Under the pieces are notes generated by a model. It did not search any database, had not been told where the DNA came from, and saw nothing but the letters and a program-made list of their open reading frames with translations. 36,707 bases of DNA, taken from NCBI GenBank assembly GCA_030704845.1, contig JAUYKZ010000022.1:1-36707 (forward strand), given 5' to 3'. The stretch is from an archaeon (GTDB lineage: Archaea > Nanobdellota > Nanobdellia > Woesearchaeales > GW2011-AR9). Each line of letters opens with the position of its first letter. Positions within the stretch are counted from its first letter, which is position 1. Both the position numbers and the translations under genes were made by a program. Positions 7,424 through 20,772 of the stretch are shown piece by piece.

Positions 7424-7582
7424 TACTAAAAAACCAAGAAAACTCCTGCATTTATGCATGGAGATGAATTGGCAGGAGTTTCAATTCTCTGGGTTTTTGG
7501 TATCCCAAAGTGCGTGGTTAAAAAGCGCTCCGGTTCAAACCCCACCATTCATGGTTGGGGTCGGAGCGCTTCCCGCACTTTG
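7424..7582. ncRNA. Two-hairpin structured element, copy A
   Basis: Hairpin 1 (7424-7502) begins TACTAAAAAACC and closes with GGGTTTTTGGTA, with an inner ACTCCTGC/GCAGGAGT stem. Hairpin 2 (7506-7582) has stem I CAAAGTGCG/CGCACTTTG, a 9-nt 5' internal loop, stem II AGCGCTCCG/CGGAGCGCT (both perfect 9 bp), a GTTCAAA internal loop (7533-7539), and stem III CCCCACC/GGTTGGGG around ATTCAT. It lies between convergent genes. A second element with the same boundaries and fold but different stem sequences is at 35350-35499. It could be a structured RNA, a bidirectional terminator or a repeat family; strand and expression are unknown. Confidence 0.55.
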
Positions 7583-7612
7583 TTGATATTTTTCTAGAAT
7601 TTATTAGAAAGA

Positions 7613-7987
7613 CTAATTAGCATGCGGAGAAAGAATTCCAAGAATAATACCTTCAAGTTCTCTATTCCCAGTAGAAATTTCTATACTATTATCAGGCTTT
7701 ATTAATCCAATACCTTCATATCTAGGTTGTATTTTTGGGATGATTTTTCTAAGACCTTTAAGAAATAAAGGAAGACGTTCTGGGAGAGTTTCTTGTGATA
7801 CATAATAAAAGAAAGTTCCTTTATTTCCTTGCTCAGGGTCATATTCAAAGAATAAATTGAATTCTGGAGTTTTTCCTGCGAATCTATCGAAATATGATTT
7901 ATACCTCACATCTGCAGCATTTAAAAGGGCTTTAATATCTCTCTTTGAATATAAATCGTTAGCATCAGTTAAACAGACTGTAACCAT
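7613..7987 (-). CDS. Hypothetical protein (124 aa)
   Basis: Start placed at the ATG at 7987 (MVTVCLTDANDLYSKRD) rather than the longer frame at 8092. TTTATATAAA at 8013-8022 is a strong TATA box about 30 nt upstream, which fits a leaderless mRNA, and the extra residues of the long form would lie across the promoter. The protein is a soluble mixed alpha/beta chain with no membrane segment and no motif I recognise. It is divergent from aspS and convergent with the cupredoxin-like gene. Confidence 0.6.
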   Translation of the reverse strand: MVTVCLTDANDLYSKRDIKALLNAADVRYKSYFDRFAGKTPEFNLFFEYDPEQGNKGTFFYYVSQETLPERLPLFLKGLRKIIPKIQPRYEGIGLIKPDNSIEISTGNRELEGIILGILSPHAN

Positions 7988-12989: not shown

Positions 12990-13407
12990 TTATTCACTAA
13001 GTAACTTCCACAAACTATCCTCATCGCTAGCGGAAGATCTTATTTGTTCAAGAAATCCGAAGAATTTTTCATCAGAATGTTTTTTTCTAGAAAGAATATT
13101 GGCTGCAGTCATTCCCACAACATGGCAGCTATAACCTTCGGTAATAAGGCGGTGTAGGGTTTCTAGTGCTGAAGAACGACCTTCTTCCCAGAGTGTGTTA
13201 ATTTGAGTAATCTGGTTCCAATAAGGTATTTCGCCGATATGAATCTTATCAGAGAGTAATATACTAAAATGCGTTAGATTTCGAATATATTAACACATTT
13301 TATATATATAAAGTGCCAAAAATAAGTTCGAAAGCTTTGGCACTTTAGTATACATCTGGTAAAAGGAGGTTTCTAATTTCAATCAAATAAGCTGTATCCT
13401 GACGCAT
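12990..13407 (-). pseudogene. Small hypothetical gene interrupted by the 89-bp element
   Basis: Without 91 nt (the element 13262-13350 plus one TA), the minus strand reads continuously from ATG at 13407 (MRQDTAYLIEIRNLLLPD) through VLLSDKIHIGEIPYWNQIT to the TAA at 12990-12992, a 108-aa protein. TTTAAATTA at 13427-13435 would be its TATA box; an in-frame ATG at 13425 is an alternative start. With the element present, translation stops at its TAC TAA after about 19 residues. The rest of the frame has no further damage, so the insertion is recent or is removed at some level. The protein family is not recognised; it is mainly helical. Confidence 0.75.
13262..13350 (-). mobile_element. 89-bp two-hairpin element, copy 1
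   Basis: Ends TACTAAAATGCG and (inverted) TACTAAAGTGCC form imperfect 12-bp terminal inverted repeats. TA at 13260-13261 and 13351-13352 is the target duplication. Two internal hairpins, AAAATGCGTTA/TAACACATTTT and AAAGTGCCAAA/TTTGGCACTTT, each have TTCGAA in the loop and are joined by TATATATATA. It is identical at 88 of 89 positions to the reverse complement of 20322-20410. It encodes nothing. It lies in the same orientation relative to its host gene as copy 2. Confidence 0.92.
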
Positions 13408-13451
13408 AACCGCCGAATTAGGCATCTAATTTAAAAATCATTCGGTCAAAA

Positions 13452-13461
13452 ACTATAAATA
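13452..13461 (+). promoter_or_regulatory. TATA box of the aldolase gene
   Basis: ACTATAAATA centred about 27 nt before the GTG at 13484, supporting a leaderless mRNA and that GTG as the start codon. Confidence 0.6.
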
Positions 13462-13483
13462 CTCTCTTCTCTTTCTTCAAACC

Positions 13484-14398
13484 GTGTTTGCATCAACTAC
13501 AAGTCTTCTAAAGAAGGCACAGAAAGGAAAATATGCGGTAGCGCATTTTAATATTAACAATATGGAAATTGTGCAAGCAGTAGTATCGGCTGCATCAAAA
13601 TTAAGAGCTCCAATAATTCTTGCTACTTCGGAAGGGGCTTTAAAATATGCGGGAATGGAATATCTTTTCTCATTAGCTAAAACTGCGGCTGAACAGACAA
13701 AGGTTCCAGTAGCATTTCATTTAGATCATGGTCGGGATTTGGAAATAATTCAGAAGGCAATTAATATGAGATATTCTTCGGTAATGTTTGATGGGTCTCA
13801 TCTTCAATTTGAAAAAAATGTTCAAGTGACAAAAAAGATAGTTAAAATGGCTCACGCCAAAGGTGTGTCGGTAGAAGCCGAACTTGGAACAATTGGCGGA
13901 GCGGAAGATTTAGTTTTTGCAAGAAAAATAATTTATACAAATCCCGAGAAAGCTAAAGAATTTGTTGAAAGAACTGGTTGTGATGTTTTGGCGGTAGCTA
14001 TCGGGACATCTCATGGCGCATATAAGTTTAAAGGAAAAGCAAATCTTCAATTAGAAATTTTAGAACAGATAAGAAAGAAAGTAAGTGTGCCCTTGGTTTT
14101 ACACGGAGCTTCTGGTGTGCCAAAAAATGTTGTTAAAACCGCCGAGAAATATGGGGCAGACTTATCTGGAGTTAAGGGAGTACCAGATTCTCAGATTAAG
14201 AAAGCTATCAAATTAGGAATTACAAAAATTAATACCGATACCGATTTAAGATTGGCATTTGATGCAGGGGTAAGACAATTTATTAAGAATAAACCTAAAG
14301 ATTTTGATCCTCGGCATATTCTTGGGCCGGCAAGAGAGATGATTAGGAAAGTTGCTGAAGAAAGAATTAAGTTATTTGGTAGCGTAAGGAAAGCGTAA
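13484..14398 (+). CDS. fba: Class II fructose-bisphosphate aldolase
   Basis: 304 aa, GTG start set by the TATA box. It cleaves fructose 1,6-bisphosphate (or a related sugar bisphosphate) to two trioses using Zn2+. Visible residues: catalytic Asp81 and zinc His82 in FHLDHGRD, Glu133 in EAELGTIGG, zinc His177 in GTSHGAYKF, zinc His207 in LHGASG, and phosphate-binding KINTDTDLR (248-256). A tagatose-bisphosphate aldolase role (GatY/KbaY) is possible, as the subfamilies are similar. It sits upstream of rpiB and rpe, so the block handles sugar phosphates. Confidence 0.92.
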   Translation: MFASTTSLLKKAQKGKYAVAHFNINNMEIVQAVVSAASKLRAPIILATSEGALKYAGMEYLFSLAKTAAEQTKVPVAFHLDHGRDLEIIQKAINMRYSSVMFDGSHLQFEKNVQVTKKIVKMAHAKGVSVEAELGTIGGAEDLVFARKIIYTNPEKAKEFVERTGCDVLAVAIGTSHGAYKFKGKANLQLEILEQIRKKVSVPLVLHGASGVPKNVVKTAEKYGADLSGVKGVPDSQIKKAIKLGITKINTDTDLRLAFDAGVRQFIKNKPKDFDPRHILGPAREMIRKVAEERIKLFGSVRKA

Positions 14399-14521
14399 AG
14401 AAAGGTTCAGAGATAGAAACATTAAAAAACGATAACGTTTTCTTTGATTTTACACAGATTATAAAAATACAATTATTTTGTGTTTTTATAAAACCAATCT
14501 GGGGAAAAGAGGTTGCAGAAG

Positions 14522-15040
14522 ATGGGAAAGAAAATCTATCTAGGATCTGATCATGCGGGATTTAAACTTAAACGTAAGATTGAACGCTGGTTACATAAAA
14601 AAAATATGCCTTATGAAGATCTAGGAAATATTACATACGATCCGGAAGACGACTACCCTGATTTTGCTGAATTGGTGGCAAGAAAGTCAGTAGATGAAAA
14701 GAGTTTTGGTATTCTTATCTGTGGCTCGGCTCAAGGGGTGTGCATTGCCGCCAACAAAATCAAAGGTGCGAGAGCAGTAATTCCTTCTTCTAAGAAAGAA
14801 ACAATCTTGGCACGATTACATAATGATGCGAACATTTTATGTCTTTCTGGATGGAAAACTGGTTGGATAAAAGCAATTTCTTTGATAAAAGCATTTTTAA
14901 CCACTCCGTTTTCAAGTGAAGAAAGACATAAAAGGAGATTAAACAAAATTAAATCTCTCGAAGAAGGTAAAACTATTTTGAAAGAAGATAAGTCGAATTC
15001 TATGTTGAAAAAAAGAATGGTTAAACAAGAGGAAATATAA
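14522..15040 (+). CDS. rpiB: Ribose-5-phosphate isomerase B
   Basis: 172 aa from the ATG at 14522, preceded by GAGG at 14509-14512; an upstream TTG at 14513 is less likely. Interconverts ribose 5-phosphate and ribulose 5-phosphate. IYLGSDHAGFKLK holds the conserved Asp-His, and GILICGSAQGVCIAANKIKGARA holds the catalytic Cys; the usual GTGIG loop is GSAQG here. LHNDANILCLSGW completes the active site. A basic C-terminal tail of about 25 residues exceeds the usual length. rpe starts 4 nt downstream. Confidence 0.9.
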   Translation: MGKKIYLGSDHAGFKLKRKIERWLHKKNMPYEDLGNITYDPEDDYPDFAELVARKSVDEKSFGILICGSAQGVCIAANKIKGARAVIPSSKKETILARLHNDANILCLSGWKTGWIKAISLIKAFLTTPFSSEERHKRRLNKIKSLEEGKTILKEDKSNSMLKKRMVKQEEI

Positions 15041-15044
15041 CCTC

Positions 15045-15668
15045 ATGAAACCAAAGATATTTCCGTCAATCATGGGTAAAAGTCAGAAGGAAATTAATGG
15101 ATTTTTTAAAAAACTGGCCGGTGTTGCTGAGACACTTCATTTAGATGTAGCTGATGGGAAATTTGTTCCAAATAAATCATTATGGTTCGATTTTAAGTTG
15201 TCTTCCAAGTTTAAGTATAATGCTCATTTAATGATTGAAAATCCAAAAAAATGGATTGAAAAGTATGGGGATAAAGTTGATTTATGTATCATTCATGAAG
15301 AGGCAGTAGAAGATCTAGGAGAATTTATTTCTTGGATGAAAACAAAGAAAAAGAAAGTTGGTTTAGCATTAAAACCAGAAACAAAAGTTTCAAGTATTAA
15401 AAAATATCTAAGTTCTATTGATTACGTTTTGATATTGACTGTCCATCCCGGTTTTTATGGCGGGAAATATTTGAAAGCTCCTTTGCGAAAAATTGAATTT
15501 ATTAAAAAAATAAATCCCAGGATTAAAACAATAGTTGACGGGGGGATGAATCCAAGAACGGTTAAAGATACCGTAAAATCAAAGGCAGATTTTATAGTGT
15601 CCGGTTCTTTCACGACTAAATCTGATAATCCTAAAGAATCTTTACGGTTGTTACGTGGGGCGATGTGA
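15045..15668 (+). CDS. rpe: Ribulose-phosphate 3-epimerase
   Basis: 207 aa TIM barrel converting ribulose 5-phosphate to xylulose 5-phosphate. Conserved segments: LHLDVADGKFVPN (catalytic Asp and metal site), NAHLMIENP, VHPGFYGGKY and IVDGGMNPRT with the second catalytic Asp. Slightly shorter than the usual 220 aa. It is coupled to rpiB upstream and to the flavodoxin-like gene, whose start follows 1 nt after this stop. Confidence 0.9.
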   Translation: MKPKIFPSIMGKSQKEINGFFKKLAGVAETLHLDVADGKFVPNKSLWFDFKLSSKFKYNAHLMIENPKKWIEKYGDKVDLCIIHEEAVEDLGEFISWMKTKKKKVGLALKPETKVSSIKKYLSSIDYVLILTVHPGFYGGKYLKAPLRKIEFIKKINPRIKTIVDGGMNPRTVKDTVKSKADFIVSGSFTTKSDNPKESLRLLRGAM

Positions 15669-15669
15669 G

Positions 15670-16368
15670 ATGAACCAGTTAAATAAAAGTGTTAACTATC
15701 TGAAGAAGAAGAAGAAAATTCTTTTCATTACAACATCTAATCGATGGAGTGGTGATAAAGAATTACCAAAAAGTTCACTTCTTGCACATAAACTCGCAGA
15801 ATCAGTGGGTAAGGATAAAGTGACCATCTTAGATGTTTCTTCATTGAATATATTTCATTGTGAAGGAAATATCTCTAGAAAAGCTGGAAATAATTGCGGA
15901 GTAATTGGAGCAACGTTAAAAAATAAAAATAAAAATCCGACCGGCAATCATCGATGTTGGGCTAGTATTAACAACAAAGATGATGATCTGTGGAAAGTAT
16001 CTAAAGAATTATTTCAATCTGATTGTGTCCTGTTTTTTAGTTCAGTTCGTTGGGGGCAGTTAAATGCACATTATCAAAAATTAATTGAAAGATTAAGTTG
16101 GATAGAAAACCGGCATAGCACCTTGAAAGAAAAGAATGTGGTTGGTGATGTTGATGTTGGTCTTATCGTGATAGGTCAAAATTGGCGGGGAAAAGAGATT
16201 TTGAGAACACAAAAAGAAGTTCTTGGTTTCTATGGTTTCAATGTCGTTAATGATCTTTGTTGGAATTGGCAATTTACCACGAACCTCGAAGATGAAAGTA
16301 AAAAATCTTACAAAGAAGCATTTACAGTATTTAGTAAGTATGTTCTTTCTGGTCTAAAAAATAGATAA
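15670..16368 (+). CDS. Flavodoxin-fold NAD(P)H-dependent FMN reductase-like protein
   Basis: 232 aa from the ATG at 15670, with GGGG of the preceding coding end acting as ribosome-binding site. KILFITTSNRWSGDKELPKSSLLAHKLAESV is the first strand and phosphate-binding loop of NADPH-dependent FMN reductase/flavodoxin folds; SDCVLFFSSVRWGQLNAHYQKLIERLSW matches the family's second conserved region for a flavin-adjacent loop. It has a Cys-containing insertion (FHCEGNISRKAGNNCGV...RCW). It is cotranscribed with rpe. The physiological substrate is not clear. Confidence 0.72.
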   Translation: MNQLNKSVNYLKKKKKILFITTSNRWSGDKELPKSSLLAHKLAESVGKDKVTILDVSSLNIFHCEGNISRKAGNNCGVIGATLKNKNKNPTGNHRCWASINNKDDDLWKVSKELFQSDCVLFFSSVRWGQLNAHYQKLIERLSWIENRHSTLKEKNVVGDVDVGLIVIGQNWRGKEILRTQKEVLGFYGFNVVNDLCWNWQFTTNLEDESKKSYKEAFTVFSKYVLSGLKNR

Positions 16369-16410
16369 GACCATCATAATCTTTTTAAAAAGAATTTAAA
16401 TTTTTATTAG

Positions 16411-17064
16411 GTGAGACTTGCAGACAAAAAATTGTCATTAGAAGAACGTTTGGCAGCAGATCATTTCTTTGAACGGATAGGAGAAACAGATTCTTTAGCT
16501 GTAAGAAGATTGGTTAAAGTAGTAAATTCTCGGGCAAGAAGTTATTTTTATTCATGGGAAATTGAAAGAGTTGCTCCATATTTTCAAGGTTGTGAAGTTT
16601 TTTTTGCAGTTTATGGAATTGGTGGCAATCTTACTAAAGAAGGTGAACGGCCAGATGTTGATGTAATGGTAGTTACTAATATGAGATATAAAAAAGGATT
16701 CATGGATGATTTCGAAACGGATGGAGATTTCCGTGGAGAATGTAGAGTTGAACCGTTATGTAGAAAAATTTACTACCGGTTCCGTTCAACTATGAATTTC
16801 GAAATCACGGGCAAAATTCCAGATAATTATAATCTAGGAGTAACTGGCGGGAAGTGTTTAATTACTTTAACTCCATTTGAAAATGGAAGAAAAATTGATG
16901 TTGTTTATGTAAAGAGTGTTATGGCTAAGGGTAGCGAATTTGGAAAGCATAATGATCAGTTATTTTTATCAGAAAAAGATTTTATTTCTAAAGATATTGA
17001 TGCTGGAGGCAATCAATTGCCAAAGGTTTTGTTATATAGAGCAAAAGCTGAAGGTAATGAATAG
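16411..17064 (+). CDS. Nucleotidyltransferase-fold protein
   Basis: 217 aa with a GTG start; CTTTTTAAAAAG about 25 nt upstream suggests a leaderless message. VYGIGGNLTKEGERPDVDVMVVTN resembles the GG-x(n)-DxDV signature of pol-beta-like nucleotidyltransferases, and RKIDVVYVKS could supply the third carboxylate. The N-terminal 50 residues are helical. No known subfamily is recognised and there is no partner gene. The assignment rests on the one motif. Confidence 0.5.
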   Translation: MRLADKKLSLEERLAADHFFERIGETDSLAVRRLVKVVNSRARSYFYSWEIERVAPYFQGCEVFFAVYGIGGNLTKEGERPDVDVMVVTNMRYKKGFMDDFETDGDFRGECRVEPLCRKIYYRFRSTMNFEITGKIPDNYNLGVTGGKCLITLTPFENGRKIDVVYVKSVMAKGSEFGKHNDQLFLSEKDFISKDIDAGGNQLPKVLLYRAKAEGNE

Positions 17065-17136
17065 TCTTTGAACTAGCTGCCTTTACATAATCTGTAATCA
17101 CGTTCTAAATTGACTTTTTCAGTAAATACAACAACA

Positions 17137-17146
17137 TTTAAAAATA
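17137..17146 (+). promoter_or_regulatory. TATA box of endA
   Basis: ATTTAAAAAT, about 25 nt before the ATG at 17166, fitting a leaderless mRNA. TTTGAACTAG further upstream (17067-17076) matches half of the palindrome in the next promoter. Confidence 0.5.
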
Positions 17147-17165
17147 CGCTTTCTAAATATAGCTT

Positions 17166-17762
17166 ATGGCAAAGAAAAAAGCCTCTGAGGAAGCAGCAGT
17201 GACTGAATCTTCATCAGAGAAAAAGAAAAAGAAAACAATTGTAACGGGCGTGCTTACGGAAGTACGTGTGCTTACAGAATCGTCCGATGAAGCGAGAGAA
17301 CTATATAACCAATCGCGGTTTGGAATGATTACTGACATCAACGGGAGAGTAGAACTTTCTTTACTGGAAGGTTTATATCTGATGGAACGTGGAAGGCTTG
17401 TGATTAAAAGTGAAGCCGGAAGAACGTTGAATTTTGACGGGTATTTACGAAAAGCAAAGAAGGAAGAACCCAATTTCTGGATAAGATATTGTGTATTCCG
17501 AGATATGAGAAATCGGGGATATATCGTTAAAACAGCGTTGAAATTTGGTGCTGATTTTAGGGTATATGATCGTGGAGTTAAACCAGGAGAAGATCATGCT
17601 CGTTGGATAATTTATCCAGTTCATGAAGCGAGTGTATTTACCTGGCATGAATTTAGTGCAAAGAACAGAGTAGCTCATTCTACAAAGAAACGGCTCCTGA
17701 TGGGAATTGTTGATGCAGAAGGGGATGTAACATACTACGAAATCCGTTGGATGAGACCTTAA
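17166..17762 (+). CDS. endA: tRNA-splicing endonuclease
   Basis: 198 aa. Cleaves introns at bulge-helix-bulge motifs in archaeal pre-tRNA. After a Lys/Ser/Glu-rich tail (1-25) comes the N-terminal domain, then the catalytic domain (about 105-198): YIVKTALKFGADFRVYDRG, HARWIIYPV, VAHSTKKRLLMGIVDAEGDVTYYEIRW. The catalytic triad fits Tyr134, His144 and Lys174 or Lys175. Length matches the homotetrameric or homodimer-subunit alpha4-type enzyme. It is upstream of the fen1 operon but has its own promoter. Confidence 0.93.
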   Translation: MAKKKASEEAAVTESSSEKKKKKTIVTGVLTEVRVLTESSDEARELYNQSRFGMITDINGRVELSLLEGLYLMERGRLVIKSEAGRTLNFDGYLRKAKKEEPNFWIRYCVFRDMRNRGYIVKTALKFGADFRVYDRGVKPGEDHARWIIYPVHEASVFTWHEFSAKNRVAHSTKKRLLMGIVDAEGDVTYYEIRWMRP

Positions 17763-17824
17763 TTATCGGGTTTATCTGTCTTTACGTATAGGGACATACT
17801 CTCTGGGCTAGAAAACTATTTAAA

Positions 17825-17840
17825 TCTAGTTTGAACTAGA
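17825..17840. promoter_or_regulatory. 16-bp palindrome in the core promoter of the fen1 operon
   Basis: TCTAGTTTGAACTAGA is a perfect 7-2-7 palindrome between the TATA-like ACTATTTAAAT (about 17815-17825) and the leaderless ATG at 17847, covering the expected transcription start. A repressor bound here would block initiation. The 10-mer TTTGAACTAG recurs at 17067-17076 ahead of endA. Confidence 0.5.
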
Positions 17841-17846
17841 AAGCCT

Positions 17847-19037
17847 ATGCACGTGCACGACCAAATCCTTCTCTTTATTAAAGCGAACGGGCCAGTTGTT
17901 CCTACGAAGATAGCTAAGACCATCAAGTCTGAGATTTTGATAGCTTCTGCTCATCTTTCTGATTTGGCAACACAGGGTAAAGTAAAAGTTTCTTATCTTA
18001 AGATTGGTGGATCGCCATTATACTATCTGTCTGGTCAAGAAGATCAACTGTTAAATTTTGCTCAGGGTAACACTAATCCAAAGGATTATGCGGTTTTAGA
18101 AACGCTAAAAGATCAAAAAGTTCTTAGGGAATCCGATTTAGATCTATTGTCAAAAGTAGCTCTTAGAGAATTGAAAGATTTTGCTATCCCATTACATGTA
18201 AGAACAAAAGATTCAGCGGAATTGTTTTGGAAATATTATCTTACTTCTTCTGAACAAACAAATGAACTAATTGGAAAAATTTTAGTGCCAGAAGAAACCG
18301 AGATAGAAACTAGAGAAGAAATAAAAGAAGAAATAAAAGAAGTAAGAGTTGTAAGAGAAGAAGAGTCAATTATAGAACCCCCAGTTGAAGATTTAAAAAA
18401 TGAAGAAATTATTCCTTCTACTGTTGAAGAATCTATAGAAGAATCTATCAGATCATCAATTCCAAATGAAGTCTTTGAAGAGAAAGTTATTGAAAAACCA
18501 GAAATTAAAGAGAAGACGATATTTAAAGAAGTAGAGAAACAAAAAGTTTCATCAAAAAAGAAGGAAGAAAAAACAGAGAAGACTGAAAAATCTTTAAAAG
18601 AAGATAAACCCAAAGAGGACAAACCAAAAGAAGATAAACAAGAAACATTAGAGAAAAAACCTTTATTTAAGAAGATTAAAGAAACTCTGGTGAAAAGTTC
18701 TTCCGTGGAAGATGTTTTCTTAATGAAAATCGAAGATTATTGTAAGGAGATGGATATCAGGATTGAACAAAAAGATATAATTCGAAAAAATAAAGAAATC
18801 GATTTAATTATTTCAATCCCTTCAGTTGTGGGGAGGGTAAGTTTCTTTTGCAAAGCTAAAAGTAAAAATAGATGTGATGAAAAAGATTTGTCCTCAGCAT
18901 ACATGGAATCACAAATTAAAAAGTTGCCCCTATTATTTTTATATTCTAATGAATTCACTAAAAAATCACAGGAAATGCTGGAATCCGGAGCATTCGATAA
19001 TGCTGTCGTGAAACGGCTTGAAAAGAATGGGTCTTAA
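17847..19037 (+). CDS. Winged-helix protein with Lys/Glu-rich linker and nuclease-like C-terminal domain
   Basis: 396 aa. Residues about 1-75 form a winged helix (HDQILLFIKANGPVVPTKIAKTIKSEILIASAHLSDLATQGKV). About 155-285 is a charged Glu/Lys-rich, likely coiled or disordered stretch. Residues about 295-396 look like a restriction-endonuclease fold: NKEIDLIISIPSVVGRVSFFCKAKSK holds an Asp, a strand and a CKAK that matches the D...xxK layout, then DEKDLSSAYMESQIKKLPLLFLYSNEFTKKSQEML. The usual Glu of ExK is replaced, so activity is uncertain. It overlaps fen1 by 11 nt, implying coupled synthesis and a role in DNA repair or replication. I have the impression that similar proteins occur in DPANN genomes; the function is unknown. 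Confidence 0.65.
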   Translation: MHVHDQILLFIKANGPVVPTKIAKTIKSEILIASAHLSDLATQGKVKVSYLKIGGSPLYYLSGQEDQLLNFAQGNTNPKDYAVLETLKDQKVLRESDLDLLSKVALRELKDFAIPLHVRTKDSAELFWKYYLTSSEQTNELIGKILVPEETEIETREEIKEEIKEVRVVREEESIIEPPVEDLKNEEIIPSTVEESIEESIRSSIPNEVFEEKVIEKPEIKEKTIFKEVEKQKVSSKKKEEKTEKTEKSLKEDKPKEDKPKEDKQETLEKKPLFKKIKETLVKSSSVEDVFLMKIEDYCKEMDIRIEQKDIIRKNKEIDLIISIPSVVGRVSFFCKAKSKNRCDEKDLSSAYMESQIKKLPLLFLYSNEFTKKSQEMLESGAFDNAVVKRLEKNGS

Positions 19038-20067
19038 TATCAAAGATTTAATTGTAAAAGAAGAGATTACAATTAAAGCATTAAAAGGGAAAATACTGGC
19101 CGTCGATTCGATGAATATTCTTTACCAGTTTTTAACAACAATTAGAGGTATTGATGGTTCGGTATTAACAGATTCTAAAGGAAGAGTAACTTCGCACTTA
19201 ATAGGGCTATTCAGTCGAACAACTGTTCTAATGGAAAATGGAATCAAGTTAGTTTTTGTTTTTGATGGGAAAGCACCCGCAATAAAACAAGAGACCTGGG
19301 AGAAACGAAGAGGTATCAAAGAAGAAGCAGAATTAAAATTCCAAGAAGCTGAAGAGGCGGGAGATTCTGAAGAGATGAAAAAATATGCCGTTAGAACAAC
19401 TAGATTAACTAAAGAGATGGTTGCTGATGCAAAAAATTTAATTACAGCGTTAGGTTTGCCAATTGTTCAAGCACCTTCGGAAGGAGAAGCTCAAACGGCA
19501 TACATGGTGAAAACGGGAGATGCGTATGCTTCTTTATCACAAGATTATGATAATCTGATTTTTGGATGTCCGAGATTAATTAGAAATCTTTCTGTTGCTG
19601 GTAGAAGAAAAAAATCCGGAAAGGCCGTAGGTTATATTACAGTTACACCGGAAATGATTGAACTTCCTAAAGTTTTAACTGAACTTAAAATTACCATTGA
19701 TCAACTAATCGTATTAGCTATCTTGATTGGAACTGATTATAATCCGGGTGGAATAAAAGGAATTGGACCAAGAAAAGCTTTGAAATTATTACAGGAACAT
19801 AAAGATAATTTTGAAGAAATTTTTAAGATAGCTAAATGGGATGAACAGTATCCTGAAAGATCTTGGCAAGAAATATTTGACACGATAAAACATATTCCAG
19901 TGACCGATAACTACGAGTTATCTTGGAAAAAGATTGACGAAGAAAAATTGGTTAAATTGTTAGTTGACGAGCACGGATTTAGTTCAGAAAGGGTACATAA
20001 AAAATTGGATGACATAAGGAAAGAACAGAAAATATTAAATCAAAAAGGATTAAATAGCTTCTTTTAG
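19027..20067 (+). CDS. fen: Flap endonuclease 1
   Basis: 346 aa from the ATG at 19027 (MGLNIKDLI), the family's usual start; it overlaps the upstream stop at 19037. It removes 5' flaps in Okazaki fragment maturation and repair. Metal and DNA-contact residues are present: Asp27 in LAVDSMN, FVFDGKAP, SEGEAQ, SQDYDNLIFG, GTDYNPGGIKGIGPRKAL (helix-hairpin-helix). The C-terminus QKGLNSFF is a PIP box for PCNA. The second active-site region has Asn in DYDNL where Ser is common. Confidence 0.95.
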   Translation: MGLNIKDLIVKEEITIKALKGKILAVDSMNILYQFLTTIRGIDGSVLTDSKGRVTSHLIGLFSRTTVLMENGIKLVFVFDGKAPAIKQETWEKRRGIKEEAELKFQEAEEAGDSEEMKKYAVRTTRLTKEMVADAKNLITALGLPIVQAPSEGEAQTAYMVKTGDAYASLSQDYDNLIFGCPRLIRNLSVAGRRKKSGKAVGYITVTPEMIELPKVLTELKITIDQLIVLAILIGTDYNPGGIKGIGPRKALKLLQEHKDNFEEIFKIAKWDEQYPERSWQEIFDTIKHIPVTDNYELSWKKIDEEKLVKLLVDEHGFSSERVHKKLDDIRKEQKILNQKGLNSFF

Positions 20068-20084
20068 AATTTATTACCGATAAA

Positions 20085-20772
20085 ATGGATTATAAAACTA
20101 TTACTCGGGAAGCATATGATCATTATGCTAGAACTCTAGATCGAAAATTTTCAGACTACTTTGAGAATCATGTTCGTTCTTATGCCGACGAATTTCTTAG
20201 AAATCTTTCCGGTAGAGAAATTCTAGATTTGGGTTCTGGACCAGGGAATCATGCGATTTATTTTAAGATGCAGGGGATGAATCCCTGTTGTTTTGATCTT
20301 TCTGAAGAGATGGTTGAGTTATACTAAAGTGCCAAAGCTTTCGAACTTATTTTTGGCACTTTATATATATAAAATGCGTTAATATATTCGAAATCTAACG
20401 CATTTTAGTATATGTAAAGAAAAAGGGTTATTAGCTCAACAAGGAGATATGGAGAAAATAGATCTTCCAAAGGATTATTTTGATGGGGTGTGGGCGCATG
20501 CATCATTACTTCATGTGTCAAGAGAAAATATCCCTTTAGTTGTAGATCAGATTATGAAAGTGTTAAAACCATCTGGATTATTGGGTCTTACGTTGAAGGA
20601 AGGAGTCGGGGAAGGATTTGAAGATTATAAAGATAGGAAGAGATGGTTTACTTACTATTTAGATGACGAGATCAGAGATTTATTTGGTGAATTTGAGGTT
20701 TTATCTTTTAGAAGAAATCCAATCGGAGATAAATACGTTTTCTTAAATTATATACTTAAAATGAAATTTTAG
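20085..20772 (+). pseudogene. SAM-dependent methyltransferase interrupted by the 89-bp element
   Basis: The first part (20085-20321) encodes a class I methyltransferase start with motif I EILDLGSGPGNHAIYF, motif II CFDLSEEMVEL, then reading stops at TAC TAA inside the element. The second part continues after 20412 as CKEKGLLAQQGDMEKIDLP, FDGVWAHASLLHV and VLKPSGLLGLTLKEG. Deleting 20322-20412 (element plus one TA) gives one 198-aa frame with no other defect. A shorter C-terminal product could start at ATG 20449. Close to fen1 upstream (17 nt). Family is the UbiE/Methyltransf_11 type with unknown substrate. Confidence 0.9.
20322..20410 (+). mobile_element. 89-bp two-hairpin element, copy 2
   Basis: Begins TACTAAAGTGCC and ends in CGCATTTTAGTA, flanked by TA at 20320-20321 and 20411-20412. 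Hairpins AAAGTGCCAAA/TTTTGGCACTTT and AAAATGCGTTA/TAACGCATTTT, with TTCGAA in each loop, are separated by TATATATATA. It differs from the reverse complement of copy 1 at one position (G for A in the ACGCATT stem, which restores a C-G pair). The last 9 bp including the TA, TATACTAAA/TTTAGTATA, are perfectly complementary. Confidence 0.93.

Follow-up and report, generated by a model that had tools for sequence, protein, structure and literature searches.

The 36,707-nucleotide stretch analysed here (JAUYKZ010000022.1, positions 1 to 36,707; the window) is contig 16 of a woesearchaeal host genome (G000; 24 contigs, 1.02 Mb, 97% complete). It carries two copies of an 89 bp element, family A, which in all likelihood is a miniature inverted-repeat transposable element (MITE) of the IS630/Tc1-mariner type, non-autonomous, gene-less and of twin-palindrome design. 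The element duplicates a TA upon insertion, occurs in identical copies, possesses outer ends in the register of IS630 termini, maintains its hairpins and has also been copied as part of composites. Multiple copies of 89 bp, none with an internal transposase open reading frame (ORF), conform to an IS630/Tc1-mariner MITE; as far as can be judged from sequence, the other characters tested for this class are likewise present, apart from a cognate transposase in the genome, which is usual but not strictly required. The sequence-only reading of the window had proposed an IS630/Tc1-mariner-type non-autonomous element, and this assignment is now supported by further copies, by nested empty sites and by same-register ends of IS630 elements. 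Within the window, the two copies comprise the following features:

13260–13261: TA target duplication, left of copy 1
13262–13350, minus strand: family A element, copy 1, 89 bp
13265–13302, minus strand: ATGCG hairpin of copy 1, with one stem mismatch
13309–13347, minus strand: GTGCC hairpin of copy 1, with a perfect 12 bp stem
13351–13352: TA target duplication, right of copy 1
20320–20321: TA target duplication, left of copy 2
20322–20410, plus strand: family A element, copy 2, 89 bp, with the same sequence as 17 further genomic copies
20322–20346, plus strand: left outer IS630-register end of copy 2, TACTAAAGTGCCAAAGCTTTCGAAC, with TCGAA at positions 20–24
20325–20363, plus strand: left hairpin of copy 2, 12 bp stem
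20360–20373: centre of copy 2, TTTATATATATAAA, the two inner ends joined over TA
20370–20407, plus strand: right hairpin of copy 2, 12 bp stem
20386–20410, minus strand: right outer IS630-register end of copy 2, TACTAAAATGCGTTAGATTTCGAAT
20411–20412: TA target duplication, right of copy 2

The coordinates, the TACTAAA/TTTAGTA ends, the flanking TA, the TTCGAA loops, the AT centre and the opposite orientation of the copies, all described in the sequence-only reading, are borne out, as is their near-identity (88 of 89 positions). The single difference, a G to A change in a stem of copy 1, is the mismatch of this stem. Per strand, the DNA is predicted to fold into two 12 bp hairpins (z = -6.7 and -7.0 versus shuffled sequences). 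The terminal inverted repeats (TIRs) have 32-nucleotide arms that are 78% complementary, with conserved TACTAAA and TCGAAC blocks.

A search of the host genome for the 89 bp sequence revealed 28 near-complete A copies, of which 18, window copy 2 included, are identical; in all, the element occurs some 30–40 times across the genome. TA is present on both sides of 27 copies, the remaining one being flanked by TA and GA, and the flanks are distinct at all 32 sites compared. Another family, termed B, has the same length of 89 bp, forms two hairpins and ends in TACTCAAC/TACTGAAC. Its 23 full or contig-cut matches in the host occupy 18 distinct contexts, only three of which lie in unrelated DNA, while the others are situated inside or adjoining A, C or D elements. 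The TTTATATATATAAA centre is a site of B insertion in other A copies; removal of 89 bp and one TA from B-in-A composites restores the A consensus, so that the insertions are exact. Contigs 18 and 20 have in common a mutated A (TTTTTTGCAC) and the position of B but differ in their flanks, which indicates that A carrying B was copied as one unit. Amplification of composites, instead of independent insertion, may explain some of the nested B copies. Single-TA empty sites, which the sequence-only reading had proposed to look for, are thus available from the comparison of intact with B-filled A copies and, at the protein level, from the methyltransferase gene described below. The recent activity that it had postulated follows indirectly, from copy identity and composites. 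Ancient fixed repeats, inherited in place and immobile, could account for the same architecture in many genera of the group; in view of 18 identical copies in different flanks, the clean nested insertions and a split methyltransferase gene with intact homologues in relatives, this explanation is hardly credible.

Several further arrangements of these repeats were observed in the host. A variant at L035 (G000:C8:205240) combines the left half of A with another right stem (AAAATGCGC..GCGCATTTT) and is directly adjoined by B. Contigs C1, C8, C10, C12, C18, C19, C20, C22, C23 and C24 terminate within or just past B, mostly nested in or beside A. Since so many contig ends fall in or beside B, repeats of this type appear to break the assembly of this metagenome-assembled genome (MAG). 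Two tyrosine recombinase genes (G000:C6:68952-71396) are located about 3 kb or less from an A::B composite; the host has five tyrosine recombinases, and nothing connects them with the element.

In the window, both copies lie within reading frames:

20085–20321, plus strand: N-terminal piece of an interrupted class I methyltransferase gene (profile and homologue matches)
20413–20772, plus strand: C-terminal piece of the same gene (profile and homologue matches)
12993–13427, minus strand: orphan frame interrupted by copy 1, 114 residues from an upstream start and 108 from the next Met

Taken as 20085–20321 and 20413–20769, the two methyltransferase pieces match positions 1–35 and 50–97 of Methyltransf_25 in a profile search. 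In unbroken homologues they abut: in L261 the N-terminal piece extends to residue 78 and the C-terminal piece starts at residue 79, and in L258 the boundary residues are 82 and 85. Adjacent parts of the profile together with abutting stretches of intact homologues confirm a 198-residue methyltransferase split by copy 2. For copy 1, the restored 108-residue frame does exist; however, its downstream piece gave no match outside its own genome when 96 genomes were searched, and the 108/114-residue frame may not be a real gene. The claim that the element interrupts genes therefore holds for the methyltransferase but does not extend to a habit of the family, since 23 of the 28 A copies lie between genes. 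An ORF of 80 residues or more runs across the joined flanks at only 5 of the 28 copies, compared to 86% of control TA sites from the same loci, which makes the genic insertions of the window exceptional. The same figures bear on the idea of an intron or a translational bypass, by which the insert would be removed or bypassed at the RNA level. Both window copies do form hairpins and are located inside reading frames, but the deficit in ORFs is the opposite of what tolerance predicts, rendering this idea extremely improbable. At L081 (G000:C21:43015-43103), B is inserted in a small frame that, judged by eye, is RelE/ParE-like.

The anatomy of the element was compared among 74 distinct units from 55 distinct doublets. 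Each doublet consists of a TA, a unit running from an outer TAC through stem, loop and stem to an inner GTA or ATA, a central TA, the same unit inverted, and a final TA. The length stays at 88–91 bp although the stem sequences are unrelated. In 64 of the 74 units, the outer arm equals the inner arm plus exactly one unpaired base; the outer tip reads TACTAAA and the inner tip TACAAA or TATAAA. TCGAA starts at base 20 from the outer end in 45 of 49 cases and mostly at bases 21–24 from the inner end. All 22 aligned units show TACT at the outer tip.

For 22 representative units that differ in stem sequence, pairing was scored by register, counting from either end. Stem positions 7–15 pair in 92% at the one-base offset, in contrast to 21–44% at other offsets and 45 ± 4% (maximum 63%, 5000 trials) after swapping arms between units; as related units share ancestry and hairpin arms can correct each other, these values demonstrate that pairing is maintained and leave the reason aside. 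Solo units with one hairpin are found at L144:1091, L187:3792 and L152:3359. Moreover, some copies with equal stems carry the hairpin loop in opposite orientation (L143 versus L145, L180 versus L140), which points to hairpin-mediated events. At L128:956 and L130:1498, longer elements carry one or two additional hairpins at the centre between the halves.

The strong maintenance of stem pairing across families would also be expected if the hairpins were kept for a role in RNA, as terminator, transcript stabiliser or small RNA, with IS630 transposition being secondary or past. In addition, the copies are intergenic and often situated 70 bp or less from a gene end. However, convergent gene pairs are not preferred (5 convergent, 6 divergent, 16 tandem), no Rfam match was detected within the window, and identical copies as well as composites favour recent mobility. 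Template-switch correction can hold the arms paired without selection, and the loop inversions fit such events. A role in RNA is thus considered unlikely.

The link between the ends of the MITEs and those of IS630 emerged from the IS630 element at locus L139 (JAUYJY010000011.1) and its subgroup; IS630 elements of other subgroups in relatives, with GATAACTGCG and GTCAGCGACA ends, had been used in the first end comparison and gave no link. At its end, L139 carries an A element with all 89 bp identical, together with the beginning of B. Its IS630 transposase is encoded in two overlapping frames, ORF1 matching HTH_33 (47.5 bits) and ORF2 matching DDE_3 (103 bits) and NF033545 (116.5 bits). The TA-flanked IS630 unit is 1110 bp long, and its ends, TAGTTAATTTCCATAGAATCCGAAC and TGGTATAATTCTTTAGAATCCGAAC, display the 25-base register and the CGAAC block found in A. 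A weight matrix derived solely from MITE ends was used to rank TA sites. In L139, the IS630 ends rank third and sixth of 1273 TA sites, with A itself in first and second place, and in L208, an IS630 from another family of the order, the ends rank first and third of 336. Several other IS630 termini, albeit not all, are the top-ranked site at their own loci. IS630 ends do not fold into the hairpins of the MITEs. An IS630 with TACTAAA ends, suggested by the sequence-only reading as a target for searches, was found in part: IS630 ends that are flanked by TA and set in the register of the element do occur within its order, but none reads literally TACTAAA. The absence of an IS630-type transposase from the window extends to the whole host genome, where none was detected.

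A different machinery would be implied by a REPIN/BIME-like nature, in which paired inverted palindromes are moved as single-stranded hairpins by a Y1 transposase (IS200/IS605-type, RAYT). The layout is indeed REPIN-like (compare PMC2817692), with a pair of inverted hairpin units that share a conserved tip, have covarying stems and are extragenic and lineage-specific. However, the host genome contains no match to the Y1 transposase (PF01797), and at ten Y1 loci inspected no adjoining hairpin-type ends were seen. The element produces a precise TA duplication, in contrast to members of IS200/IS605, which do not generate larger duplications (PMC2817692), and its ends match IS630 termini in register. 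Its tip is TACT instead of the 5' GTAG tetranucleotide of REP tips (PMC2817692). A REPIN/BIME-like element is accordingly very unlikely.

Several observations weigh against an IS630-type MITE. The matrix assigns poor ranks to some IS630 ends (L212 and the right end of L217), the TAC of the MITEs is replaced by TAG or TGG in the IS630 ends found, and the better IS630 end of L139 matches A at just about 18 of 27 positions. Owing to these TAG/TGG ends and the partial identity, the IS630 elements compared may be only relatives of the actual mobiliser. No DDE_3 transposase was found in the host (97% complete), JAGVYH or JACQSP, all of which are incomplete assemblies. The relatives searched included no genome of the same genus, and the evidence for empty sites comes from nested copies and protein-level homologues. 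Finally, L139 is placed in a Pacearchaeota bin, and its tetranucleotide usage is nearer to that bin than to the host, typical of neither.

L139 overlaps two host contigs by exactly 141 bases each, its end at 1-141 coinciding with the start of contig 17 and its end at 7504-7644 with the end of contig 10. L139 likely shares an assembly graph with the host (k=141; k141 appears in the record name). The repeat common to G000:C17:1-141 and L139:1-141 is at least 141 bp long, contains CGGCATATACGG and is unrelated to A and B. L139 may have been mis-binned from the host, may come from a third organism or may have been transferred recently. Should it derive from another archaeon, the presence of the identical element in two DPANN genomes from a single sample would signify a very recent transfer between them.

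Assuming an IS630-type MITE, a DDE transposase of the IS630 clade, supplied in trans, would bind the outer ends and cut at TA, and the 89 bp unit would be pasted into another AT-rich TA, with the survivors being mostly intergenic. The palindromic nature of each half gives it a second, inner IS630-like end. Here the shorter inner arm places TCGAA off register, which probably blocks central cleavage, so that the doublet moves as a whole. The solo units, half the size of a doublet, suggest an origin of the latter by insertion of one unit beside another. The stems probably stay paired through copy-correction of the arms, a role of the hairpin form in transposition, or both, and the transposase may have been lost from or be absent in the present carriers. 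A bolder proposal, which is rather doubtful, is that of a DPANN-specific class of mobile DNA composed of two self-contained palindromes with IS630 ends, in which hairpin formation would be part of transposition, the conserved one-nucleotide offset would direct the transposase to the ends to be cut among four that are TIR-like, and the stem sequences would be free to diversify with the structure preserved. With many stem sequences and a fixed end register, the elements constitute a natural experiment in which sequence that an IS630 transposase may recognise (TACTAAA, TCGAAC) is separated from structure that it may recognise.

Among about 85,000 species genomes, the whole-element pattern was found in 68 stretches, exclusively in MAGs of Woesearchaeota, Pacearchaeota or Nanoarchaeota, with the majority coming from two genomes, JAGVYH and JACQSP. 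The half-element pattern is present in 19 of 115 relatives, while a reversed-pattern control was near zero. A viral origin was rejected because a search of IMG/VR revealed no relative of the element or the transposase. Several woesearchaeal genomes are rich in the element, which accounts for split genes and apparently for assembly breaks.

A twin-palindrome design combining fixed length and off-register inner ends is not known from described MITEs, and a search of the literature collection available found no paper on MITEs of DPANN or Woesearchaeota. The Correia elements of Neisseria differ in sequence and are not known to have a twin-palindrome layout. They resemble the present element in being IS630-related prokaryotic MITEs (PMC2817692). 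REPIN/BIME elements are similar as extragenic repeats made of inverted pairs of palindromic units; the present element differs from them by its TA duplication, its IS630-register ends and a host devoid of Y1/RAYT. The Sulfolobus MITEs SMN1 and SM3A are likewise archaeal and moved in trans, but are 164–320 bp long, linked to ISC1733 and ISC1058, and not described as twin hairpins (PMC3718332). Among known cases, RUP of Streptococcus pneumoniae, a 107 bp element attributed to IS630-Spn1 (PMC2229807, PMC3049150), comes closest, and by analogy the present element is taken to work like RUP. Both are short, gene-less and intergenic, target TA and carry IS630-like ends of their own lineage. A tendency of RUP to land in or close to other mobile elements has been reported (PMC2229807, PMC3049150), and the same is seen here. 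In contrast to RUP, whose cognate IS630 is present in the genome, none was found in the host of the present element; moreover, each half of the latter forms its own hairpin, and its length is kept at 88–91 bp across unrelated stems.

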